This document shows, piece after piece, positions 35,021-44,452 of a stretch of DNA of 55,092 nt. Below the pieces are notes generated by a model. That model saw only the letters and a list, made by a program, of their open reading frames with translations. It made no database searches and was not told where the DNA came from. The stretch's first letter is position 1. Every line of letters begins with the position of its first letter. Made by a program: the position numbers and the translations under genes. The DNA is from Dethiobacter alkaliphilus (GTDB lineage: Bacteria; Bacillota; Dethiobacteria; DTU022; UBA8154). Location: contig JAENYV010000012.1 of assembly GCA_016841605.1 (NCBI GenBank), positions 1 to 55,092 on the forward strand, given 5' to 3'.

Positions 35021-35752
35021 ATGGCAACTACGACGGAAAACTGCCTGGTTTGCAGCAACGAATTAGTATACTTTGATAGCGGTAAAGAACTGACCTGTTT
35101 TTATTGTGGAAAAACTGAAAATACAAATATTACGTGTCCAAACGGCCATTATATTTGTGACGATTGCCATGGGAAAGGTGTTTTTGCTACGGTCAGAGAT
35201 TACGTTCTTAAAGTTGAATCCGGCAATTCTTTTGACATTGCTGAAACTATCATGGGATTTACAGATAAAGTACCCATGCTGGGCTGTGAAAATGCCTGGA
35301 TTGCTGCCGGCGCTTTCATGGCTGCCCTTAAAAACGAAGGCACAATTACTATTTCAAACAACCAAATAGATGAAGTACTTCGTCGTACCAGGAAACAGGC
35401 TATTGGAGGATACTGTGGATTAACAGGGATATGCGGAATCGCTCCTGCCATGGGAGCATGTTTTAGCGTTCTTTTAGGTGCAGCATGTCCTAAAGATCAG
35501 GAAACAGCCATGACGATGAAAGTTGTTGGTAAAATAGTAAATGCTATCGCTGACCAGACCGGCCCATGCTGCTGCAAGAACTTTGTCAGGACTGCACTCA
35601 TTGAAGCCGTTAAGTTAGCTGAAGCGTATCTTAATGTATCTTTACCATTGTACAATGATACAATTGTTTGTACACATAGTGAACGCCACCCCCATGGATG
35701 CAGAAAGAACAAATGCCCTTATTATAAACAAACACCATCGCCATGTCGCTGA
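35021..35752 (+). CDS. Cysteine-rich DUF5714-like protein
   Basis: 243 aa. The N-terminus has paired-cysteine motifs like small zinc or Fe-S knuckles: NCLVCSNELVYF, LTCFYCGKTENTNITC, YICDDCHGKG. The middle has the family-like text MLGCENAWIAAGAFMAALKN, YCGLTGICGIAPAMGACF and TGPCCCKNFVRTAL; the C-terminus is CTHSERHPHGCRKNKCPYY. I take this as DUF5714, from memory of the family; function unknown, with cysteine number suggesting metal cluster or zinc binding. The ribosome site before ATG 35021 is weak. A 21-codon frame just upstream (34926-34991, ending TEKDNC) resembles the start of the protein and may be a remnant or leader. Confidence 0.6.
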   Translation: MATTTENCLVCSNELVYFDSGKELTCFYCGKTENTNITCPNGHYICDDCHGKGVFATVRDYVLKVESGNSFDIAETIMGFTDKVPMLGCENAWIAAGAFMAALKNEGTITISNNQIDEVLRRTRKQAIGGYCGLTGICGIAPAMGACFSVLLGAACPKDQETAMTMKVVGKIVNAIADQTGPCCCKNFVRTALIEAVKLAEAYLNVSLPLYNDTIVCTHSERHPHGCRKNKCPYYKQTPSPCR

Positions 35753-41773: not shown

Positions 41774-42165
41774 CAAGCCCAGGCAAATGCCGCTCCCAGG
41801 AAAATACTTATGGCTGTCCACGGATTATAGAGCAGATAAACCATGGCGATGGCCGACTTAGTATTATTCTTGCAAAACCGCCGAGTAAACTTCGGTAGAC
41901 ACTGTGGAATCGCCATAAACTTTCATTTCGTAATATCCTACCGGATAAGGCTCAGAAAGGATGGAAACAATGGGAACAGAAACATATTCGTATGTAGATT
42001 CCCAGGTATTTTTCTCAAGAACTATCGTACTCCCGGAATAGGGGCTTGAACTTGCATTTTCATATACAACTCCATAATATTCTGAAGGCGTCGTATCGCC
42101 CACATTGCGCAGGTGAAATTCATAGCCCTCCGCTGCCGGCAGAACTTCCCGGGCGTCTTAAGCTC
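41716..42165 (-). pseudogene. Remnant of an envelope protein gene with C-terminal membrane anchor
   Basis: One frame (about 42160-41864) reads EGYEFHLRNVGDTTPSEYYG to VYSAVLQE with no start; a stop precedes it. A second frame then encodes a hydrophobic anchor, AMVYLLYNPWTAISIFLGAA, followed by CYKRRKLQ, like the end of the CFI-box proteins in this window (VYLLYYPV...YRRKR). The CFI motif itself is not found. So it is a 5'-truncated, frameshifted remnant that overlaps the ends of the EAL gene. Confidence 0.6.
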
Positions 42166-42207
42166 TTTCAACAGTGTGTAAAAAAGCAAACTGAAAAGGA
42201 AGTGATA

Positions 42208-43095
42208 TTGTTGCGAGCGGCAGCCCTGAGTTTTGCCGAAGCGGACTTTACTACCCGGCAGGGTTTCCTGGACCATGTTTATAACGCTCTTTCTCCCGCT
42301 GCGGAAGGTGAGCAATTTTTACTGGTCTTTCCGGCACACCTGGCCCTGCTTTTCGCTTACCGCTGTGGAGATCTCGGCAGTCCGGCAGACTTTGCCGAAG
42401 CTGCCTCGGCCTTTTTAAAGCTGCCTCCGTCCTGGTCCGAAAAATTCCTTGACATTCAGCGTGCCATCGCCCTCAGCTTACAGGCCTATCTTGTTCCCGG
42501 CAGCTTTTTAACGGCGCATTATGAAGATATCTTCCATACGGCCTGTCTCTTTTCTCCTGAGGGAGAAGTGCTGGGATACCAGCAGCAGCTTTTTCTTTCC
42601 CGGGAAGAAAGAAATATGGGATGGTCCCGCGGCGAAGAAGCCGTGGTTTTCCAAACCGGCCTGGGACAACTGGGAATCATCATCGGCACAGACGCTTGGT
42701 ATCCTGAAGTCAGCCGCGTCCTGGCCTTAAAAGGAAGCGAAATTGTCTGTCACTGCGGGGCCCTGGACGCTGACGAAAACAAGTGGCGGCAGGTGGCGGG
42801 CATGTGGCAGCAGGTCCAGCACAACCGGTTTTTTTGTGTAGAAAGCCAGCTGACGGCTGCAATCGCGGGGCGCAAATTCGGCGCGTCATGCCTTATTCAC
42901 GCTCCCTGTGAAATGACTCCTGCATATGAAGGACTTTTAGCAAAGGGTGAAATGGAGGGAGAAGTTATTGAAGCTATCCTTGACAGAGAAATCCGGCAGG
43001 AAGTCTCCCCCAAATTTCCGCTTTTACAACTGTTGAAACCGGCAGCCTACCACGGTCTGGCTGTCATTATGCCGGAGGAAAGTAATGATACTTAA
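42208..43095 (+). CDS. Nitrilase-superfamily pseudoenzyme
   Basis: About 295 aa from TTG 42208 (AGGA 7 bases before; the frame is open further up but the fold begins here). The nitrilase fold is clear (LLVFPAHLALLF, CLFSPEGEVLGYQQQLFLS, LGIIIGTDAWYPEVSRVLALK, IVCHCGA, QVQHNRFFCVESQ). All three catalytic residues are changed: Glu of FPE is Ala in FPAHL, Lys of the y-x-K motif is Gln in YQQQL, and Cys of CyD is Gly/Thr in IIGTDAW. So it cannot be a hydrolase of the usual kind. It overlaps an intact paralogue by 11 bases and may be its structural or regulatory partner. Confidence 0.82.
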   Translation: MLRAAALSFAEADFTTRQGFLDHVYNALSPAAEGEQFLLVFPAHLALLFAYRCGDLGSPADFAEAASAFLKLPPSWSEKFLDIQRAIALSLQAYLVPGSFLTAHYEDIFHTACLFSPEGEVLGYQQQLFLSREERNMGWSRGEEAVVFQTGLGQLGIIIGTDAWYPEVSRVLALKGSEIVCHCGALDADENKWRQVAGMWQQVQHNRFFCVESQLTAAIAGRKFGASCLIHAPCEMTPAYEGLLAKGEMEGEVIEAILDREIRQEVSPKFPLLQLLKPAAYHGLAVIMPEESNDT

Positions 43096-44107
43096 ACAAA
43101 AATTATTTTTGCTGCAGCTCAAACGACGGACAAGAGCGTCCCTGGTAAGCAGACACCTGAAAAGAAAGAAAATTAAACTCTCGGGCAACTGTAACAGCAT
43201 CGATCTCCGCGGCGTAAAAGTTGGGGCGGTCCAGGTTGAAGCCAGGTTGTATTCCAACCCGCTGGACTACGCAGATGAAATGTGCAGACACACTGCACGC
43301 GCCGTAGCGGAAGGAGTACAGCTTCTCGTTTTCCCGGAGAACAACTCCTTCCAACTGCTCGGTCTAATCCCGGATATTGCTGCCATGGCAGAAAAAATGA
43401 ACAGGGATAACTCTTCCGTCAAGGCGGTTCACCTCTTCCGCTTTGCCGGTCAGGCAATGAACAGAATGGCACTCCAGGTGTTTTCTTTCCTGGCCAAAGC
43501 TCACGGTATGTATATTATGGCGGGAAGCTTCCCCTACCCTGAGGCCGGAGTTGTAATGAACAGGGCTTTTCTCTACGGACCCGACGGCGTGCAAATCGGT
43601 CGGCAGGATAAGGTTCATCTCATGCCCATCGAACACCTCTGGGGGTTGTCCTCAGGGTGCTCCTTCCATGTTTTTCCGACGTCGCTTGGCCGCCTGGCCA
43701 TGCCGGTCTGCATGGACGCCAGTTATTTTGAGACATTCCGTATCCTTGACAGCCAAGGTGCGGAAATAGTGATGGTACCTATCGCCAACGCGGAGCCCTA
43801 CAACTTCTGGCCCGCACTGCGGGGCCTTTGGGCAAGAGTGCAGGAAAGCACGGTCTACGGAATCAAAAGTGCGCTTGTCGGTAAACTGTTTGGCTTTACG
43901 CTGACAGGTAAGGCGGGAGTGTTCGCGCCGCTTGAACTTACCCCGGAGAGAGACGGGGTGCTCAGCGAGGCGCCTAACTTTGATCGGGAGACACTGGTCA
44001 CTGCTGTGCTGGACCTGGAGGCACTACAGAGGCTAAAAAAAAATCACCCCTACCTGGGTGACAAAAATCCGGCATTTGTTAATAAAAATTTCCCCTTAAT
44101 CTACTGA
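43085..44107 (+). CDS. Nitrilase-superfamily amidohydrolase with intact Glu-Lys-Cys triad
   Basis: 340 aa. A basic ~45-residue N-terminal extension (many Lys/Arg) precedes the fold. Triad: Glu in LLVFPENNSF, Lys in GRQDKVHLMPIE, Cys in MPVCMDASYFET. The usual second Glu region and IVMVPIANAEPYN follow. The enzyme hydrolyses a C-N bond of an amide; the branch and substrate are not clear. Start ATG with GGAGG, overlapping the pseudoenzyme gene by 11 bases. The basic N-terminus could bind membrane or nucleic acid. Confidence 0.88.
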   Translation: MILKQKLFLLQLKRRTRASLVSRHLKRKKIKLSGNCNSIDLRGVKVGAVQVEARLYSNPLDYADEMCRHTARAVAEGVQLLVFPENNSFQLLGLIPDIAAMAEKMNRDNSSVKAVHLFRFAGQAMNRMALQVFSFLAKAHGMYIMAGSFPYPEAGVVMNRAFLYGPDGVQIGRQDKVHLMPIEHLWGLSSGCSFHVFPTSLGRLAMPVCMDASYFETFRILDSQGAEIVMVPIANAEPYNFWPALRGLWARVQESTVYGIKSALVGKLFGFTLTGKAGVFAPLELTPERDGVLSEAPNFDRETLVTAVLDLEALQRLKKNHPYLGDKNPAFVNKNFPLIY

Positions 44108-44218: not shown

Positions 44219-44452
44219 TTAACCCGGAATTTGCCGACACTTTCGCGCAAATTCAACCATCTTTTCCAGATTGACGGTTACTTCAGATAACTTGCCGTCA
44301 GACAGGCTTCTCCAATCTGATGTGCCGGCCGCCTCTTTAATCATGTCCAGCACCTGGAACCTGTAATACCCCATAAGCAGCAGTTCTCTGACAAGACTTT
44401 CAGTTTTAAGCACGTAGTCTCTCATCAAATCTTTCCCCTTTACTGTAACCAA
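44219..44452 (-). CDS. Small helical protein of unknown function
   Basis: 77 aa from TTG 44452 (AGGAG 7 bases before), or 68 aa from ATG 44425 (GGGGAAAG before). Predicted helical, acidic/basic mix, with LVRELLLMGYYRFQVLDMI and a C-terminal EFARKCRQ. I do not recognise a family. It stands alone between two plus-strand genes; the pattern resembles small regulatory or sporulation-type proteins but nothing proves this. Confidence 0.55.
   Translation of the reverse strand: MVTVKGKDLMRDYVLKTESLVRELLLMGYYRFQVLDMIKEAAGTSDWRSLSDGKLSEVTVNLEKMVEFARKCRQIPG

Follow-up and report, generated by a model that had tools for sequence, protein, structure and literature searches.

Most descriptions of nitrilase-superfamily enzymes are of homodimers and homo-spirals, and the state of oligomerisation is known to control both activity and specificity. 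A locus in Dethiobacter alkaliphilus raises the question of what a nitrilase paralogue that has lost its catalytic residues does beside one that has kept them. The locus lies on contig JAENYV010000012.1 (assembly GCA_016841605.1), of which positions 1 to 55,092 were analysed as a single stretch of DNA, referred to here as the window. A first-pass annotation of the window had described two overlapping nitrilase paralogues, and had proposed that they form a heteromer in which the upstream, dead copy regulates or completes the active site of the downstream one.

The two reading frames and their active sites

Both genes are located on the plus strand. ORF A (42208..43095; 295 residues) probably starts at the TTG codon at 42208 or at 42211, is preceded by a likely ribosome-binding site (AAAAGGAAG, 42194..42202, 5 nt before TTG 42208), and stops at the TAA ending at 43095. 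ORF B (43085..44107; 340 residues) starts at the ATG at 43085, and its ribosome-binding site (GGAGGAAAG, 43074..43082) is embedded within the 3' end of ORF A. The frames share the 11 bases 43085..43095, exactly the overlap that had been annotated. Their paralogy as nitrilases is upheld as well, since both exceed the curated cut-off of the Pfam family PF00795 (42.3 bits for A and 61.4 bits for B, cut-off 23.2). Neither falls into a finer curated family. NCBIfam equivalogs score approximately one-tenth of their cut-offs, which holds for N-carbamoylputrescine amidase (TIGR03381; A 38.8 and B 41.4 bits, cut-off 410.25) and for the archaeal-type nitrilase (NF040852; A 40.6 and B 61.8 bits, cut-off 500).

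Active members of the nitrilase superfamily are recognised by a Glu-Lys-Cys triad, which is absent from ORF A. In the alignment, the catalytic glutamate is replaced by Ala43 (codon GCA, 42334..42336), the lysine by Gln127 (42586..42588), and the nucleophilic cysteine by Gly160 (codon GGC, 42685..42687), with Thr161 next to it. These are the very substitutions that the first-pass annotation had read in the upstream copy, and they mark ORF A as a pseudo-nitrilase with a C-N hydrolase fold. The second, non-triad glutamate of the superfamily is retained as Glu134 (42607..42609), although the triad is gone.

ORF B is predicted to be the catalytic copy, an amidase or nitrilase of the superfamily. 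As had been claimed for the downstream copy, it keeps Glu85 at the site of the catalytic base (43337..43339), Lys176 (43610..43612), and the nucleophile Cys209 (codon TGC, 43709..43711), to which the alignment adds the second glutamate, Glu183 (43631..43633). The unusual basic N-terminal extension attributed to it also exists: in the window's B it comprises about 43 residues, including 13 Lys or Arg and a single Asp. Its lasting feature across the family is an amphipathic helix (43091..43162, delimited by conservation and by helices 295-307 and 310-318 in a model of the tethered pair), and the basic character is weaker elsewhere.

The surroundings of the pair within the window include genes for a cysteine synthase, an MCP/cache protein, an EAL-YkuI_C protein, and an ECF sigma factor. 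These are uninformative regarding function, because they are hardly shared with relatives. The gap upstream of ORF A contains a short open stretch on the minus strand (41880-42130; EFHLRNVGDTTPSEYYGVVYENASSS...), which resembles what is left of the C-terminal end of a gene for a secreted protein. On the other side, a small unannotated frame on the minus strand (44220-44450; MRDYVLKTESLVRELLLMGYYRFQVLDMIKEAAG...) converges with ORF B. Further away, a DUF5714 protein (35021-35752) matches the first half of the model for the double selenoprotein MbdU with 394 bits, which is below the cut-off. The gene ends at a TGA that is followed soon after by a second stop, and there is thus no evidence of a longer selenoprotein at this position.

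Conservation, fusion, and origin of the pair

Searches of Bacillota genomes and related contigs recovered 91 distinct A–B pairs after the removal of duplicates. In every one of them, A immediately precedes B on the same strand, and a profile-based estimate places most pairs either overlapping or no more than about 100 bases apart. Chance cannot plausibly account for a pattern seen in so many distinct pairs. The pair was found in the same family as the window's host, and then throughout its order, class, and phylum; named GTDB contigs that carry it include Dethiobacter, a Syntrophomonadaceae MAG, a Halobacteroidaceae MAG, and several Bacillota MAGs. It also occurs in MAGs whose titles name Desulfovibrio and Petrotoga (L043 and L048). 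Since the other matches are mainly from Bacillota, these two probably reflect misbinning, misnaming, or transfer.

Co-occurrence was assessed in 398 Bacillota genomes of at least 90% completeness, with a clear B defined as one scoring more than 250 bits. Such a B is present in 68 genomes, approximately 17% of the sampled Bacillota species, and an A, or at least part of one, adjoins it in all 68. Three of these escaped a plain search for A: in two (G256 and G322), B sits at a contig end with a piece of A still visible, and in the third (G343), inspection revealed a very diverged A beside B, with Glu replaced by Gln and Lys by Ala. The question of whether the pair is conserved, which the first-pass annotation had left for a survey, is answered by these results in the affirmative.

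The same survey answers whether the triad is always lost in the first copy. An intact triad, which the first-pass annotation had named as grounds for refutation, occurs in none of the 91 A copies, a count to be read with the knowledge that A and B were assigned with profiles from the first set of pairs, which would in principle allow a triad-bearing A to be scored as B; every pair yielded one A and one B, and no pair had two intact copies. The catalytic glutamate is found in none of the 77 A copies that can be aligned at its site (Ala 54, Gly 17, Pro 3, Ser 2, Gln 1; 14 unalignable), and the catalytic lysine in none of the 90 scored, where the change to glutamine is nearly fixed (Gln 88, Glu 2). 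The nucleophile site holds Gly in 65 copies, Cys in 9, Ser in 8, Ala in 4, His and Asp in 2 each, and Asn in 1. The statement that all three catalytic residues are lost is therefore accurate for the window and for 82 of the 91 pairs, and needs amending for nine A copies, which keep the cysteine without the glutamate and lysine. As glutamate and lysine are missing from every A that can be scored, their loss is most simply placed before the radiation of the pair.

Other positions of the A pocket are retained. Asp162 is invariant (91/91), as is Gly119 wherever it can be aligned, Gln125 occurs in 86 copies, and the second glutamate in 74 of 91. This is set against a mean identity between A copies of 35%. 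B copies preserve their catalytic residues almost without exception (Glu, Lys, and the second Glu in 91/91, Cys in 90/91). A B copy lacking the cysteine was noted in genome G211 (L171, 7558-8637). A remote pair in G391 (L223, 332-1240 and 1186-2589) has a B that also seems to be without a triad, reading PAD and QEK with no Cys. In both of these genomes, the two members are possibly dead.

In five of the 91 pairs, the two genes are naturally joined into a single open frame, which runs through A, a linker, and then B including its N-terminal helix. Four of these belong to one family (G434, G207, G178, and G141) and the fifth to another class (G159). The order to which the first group belongs also contains unfused pairs, and the fusions consequently look like two independent events. 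Fusion in two unrelated lineages is Rosetta-stone evidence, drawn from gene structure, for a physical partnership of A and B. A further open frame (L157, 5824-9549, minus strand; G325) has B fused at the C-terminus to a GH125-like protein.

A maximum-likelihood tree resolves A (support 100/99) and B (100/98) as separate clades, and their sequence relationships identify them as products of an old duplication. Together with three unpaired, intact nitrilases, they are set apart from all other sampled nitrilases (100/98). The three (L221, 4136-5239; L222, 4175-5314; L225, 195-1361) form a small group with an intact triad and the shared helix motif GxWxRxQ. No A partner was found near any of them, and their neighbours are uninformative. 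As close relatives of the pair, they could serve as control enzymes. The A and B subtrees branch in parallel, and the pairwise distances of the two are correlated (r 0.89). This is expected of any linked gene pair, and shows only that A and B travel together. Across 84 comparisons, median dN/dS was 0.23 for A and 0.15 for B, and A is thus under purifying selection.

A role for the dead copy

The basic unit of the superfamily is a dimer across the A-interface, and heterocomplexes of plant nitrilases are known, being necessary in some grass nitrilases (PMC6214922, PMC6637149). Structure prediction of the A–B complex, a check proposed in the first-pass annotation, was carried out on tethered pairs. 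An alignment that mixed fused rows with rows of A or B alone was dropped, as A rows had apparently been placed on the B half; MAFFT stacks single-domain rows on one half, and for that reason in-frame A-stop-B rows were used instead. In translating these, the A stop was rendered as Gly, purely as a computing device, which gave 34 naturally paired rows. For the window's own pair, the two frames were connected at the overlap by a step of one base, resulting in a model of 632 residues.

AlphaFold2 returned confident models for the window's tethered pair (pLDDT 90.5, pTM 0.91) and for that of a relative, G009 (pLDDT 88.8, pTM 0.89). With two domains of about 300 residues each, a pTM of 0.91 means that their relative placement is predicted with confidence, with the caveat that AlphaFold2 has seen many nitrilase homodimers and could favour a dimer-like docking without this being specific. 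ORF B adopts the alpha-beta-beta-alpha fold of the superfamily, with pLDDT mostly above 90 and VIA-align Z scores of 26–29 to many members. In the model, the strands and helices of A follow one another as they do in B. Compared with solved nitrilase-superfamily chains, a comparison that spans the B half only, the model reaches Z scores of approximately 29. Among the A segments compared for conservation, the two that match the dimer-face helices scored highest, with 3.25 and 2.99 bits against a mean of 2.07.

On this evidence, A and B probably constitute a dedicated heteromeric enzyme of the nitrilase superfamily, with B as its sole catalytic subunit and A as a pseudoenzyme partner. The heteromer first proposed from the window draws support from strict co-occurrence and order, two independent fusions, mirrored phylogenies, and the predicted complex. 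In such an enzyme, A would stand in for one of the two subunits of the usual nitrilase homodimer. It is predicted to dock on B, and would do so via the conserved dimer face of the superfamily, formed by the helices after the nucleophile; the motifs YPEVSR and GMWQxVQQN in A, and YFETFR and RGxWxRVQE in B, are candidates for this contact. By docking, A may support the active site and fold of B. Translational coupling at the overlap would hold the subunits near a 1:1 ratio. B would act as an amidase or nitrilase on a small, possibly sugar-linked substrate.

The main rival to this explanation is that A is a ligand-binding regulatory subunit, whose dead pocket still binds a substrate, product, or signal, and switches B on or off, a role that would go beyond completing the fold. 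The dead site is certainly not decaying at random, given the near-fixed change of lysine to glutamine, the constancy of Gly119 and Asp162, and the frequent retention of Gln125 and the second glutamate; the fixed Gln127 in particular keeps a ligand-binding pocket open as an option. However, the former glutamate site, which accepts Ala, Gly, Pro, and Ser, and the former cysteine site vary more than would be expected of a fixed binding site, and the best-conserved segments among those compared are the dimer-face helices. A regulatory A is possible, and the less probable of the two. The same pocket could have been rebuilt for another reaction that uses Asp162, Glu134, and Gln127, which would make A a different enzyme. 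Asp162 is indeed present in all copies, and the other two are nearly invariant. Yet B, too, conserves the aspartate beside the nucleophile site and the second glutamate, neither of which is its nucleophile, and no candidate nucleophile is conserved in A, so that this reading is very unlikely. The idea that A follows a new catalytic code built on a conserved cysteine was likewise rejected, for want of a conserved nucleophile.

Two further explanations assign A no part in the activity of B. A and B could be neighbours by history only, with B an ordinary homodimeric nitrilase and A unrelated to it in function. The intact sister group, which occurs with no A partner nearby, demonstrates a close relative outside such a pair. 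Nevertheless, in the 68 genomes with a clear B, each is accompanied by at least part of an A, and the two independent fusions, the invariant order and strand, the mirrored trees, and the confident placement of the domains in the model all render mere historical adjacency improbable. Finally, A could be a decaying pseudogene left by tandem duplication, as the loss of all three triad residues in the window might suggest. A remains in an open frame in the surveyed pairs, its motifs have been conserved across a very old split, and decay is ruled out by this conservation, by dN/dS, and by the fusions; its probability is negligible.

Genomic neighbourhood and relation to known systems

Outside the window, the genomic context of the pair is more revealing. 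Among 54 loci examined, a GH125-like protein (PF06824) adjoins the pair or lies near it in approximately 24, often just upstream, and a symporter of the GPH family (MFS_2) is found nearby in approximately 15. The typical order on a single strand is GH125-like gene, A, B, and symporter (for example, L142, L173, and L175). This cluster was also noted at L139, L166, and other loci, in many Bacillota. The GH125-like neighbours score 66–81 bits against PF06824 (cut-off 23.4), and align to the exo-alpha-1,6-mannosidases 2nvp and 3qt3 with a PSDD motif and a C-terminal glutamate. As the alignment covers only the C-terminal 200 residues, the protein as a whole can be assigned to GH125 only in part.

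The recurrence of the pair beside a glycosidase and a sugar symporter in many genomes indicates that its substrate may be sugar-linked, and the composition of the cluster suggests a pathway that takes up a glycosylated amide or nitrile and hydrolyses it. Neither the GH125-like gene nor the GPH transporter was found when sought in the window's own genome; the pair can thus work without both, and the association is not obligatory. We give roughly even odds to the broader proposal that the pairs represent an undescribed, widespread, and ancient class of obligate pseudoenzyme–enzyme nitrilase heteromers in Bacillota, which many lineages would have linked with a GH125-like glycosidase and a GPH symporter for this purpose. 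Most pairs are presumably annotated as two separate hydrolases. A subunit that has kept its fold and interface and lost catalysis would offer a clean system for understanding the role of the second subunit in nitrilases. The conserved neighbours point to a pathway, and the substrate could be identified with ordinary assays.

Heteromeric nitrilases and pseudoenzyme partners are already known, and a bacterial nitrilase with an always-dead partner appears to be new: no description of the A–B pair, or of any nitrilase pseudoenzyme–enzyme heterodimer, was found in the open-licence literature searched. Among solved structures, the best sequence match of B is PH0642 from Pyrococcus horikoshii (PDB 1j31, 6ypa), with which it shares the fold and the Glu-Lys-Glu-Cys residues (VIA-align Z 28.6 over 255 residues). 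Amidases of the PH0642 type are described as assemblies of identical subunits. In contrast to B, they are not known to have a dead paralogue, and B has an extra N-terminal helix and the helix motif RGxWxRVQE, which it shares with A. 

The closest parallels for the combination of subunits come from plants. In the NIT4 homologues of Poaceae, activity requires two nitrilase paralogues to come together (Jenrich 2007, as cited in PMC6214922), and an inactive nitrilase subunit (Cys to Ala) can alter the specificity of its active partner (PMC6214922). These heteromers resemble A–B in that two nitrilase paralogues combine; unlike the bacterial operon, they belong to the plant NIT4 lineage and form helical filaments. 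To our knowledge, they are not an ancient pair with one member always dead. NitFhit (PDB 1ems) and other Rosetta-stone fusions of nitrilases are comparable to the fused A–B pairs, as fusion reveals a functional partner in each case, and the B half matches the 1ems chain with a Z score of 29.2. The partner in NitFhit is Fhit, whereas in the A–B fusions it is a second, dead nitrilase. The support of a live enzyme by its dead paralogue has a precedent in the BRCC36–KIAA0157 heterodimer, where, according to PMC4579573, the dead paralogue is required by or supports the live one. The fold and chemistry of that complex differ from those of the nitrilase pair.
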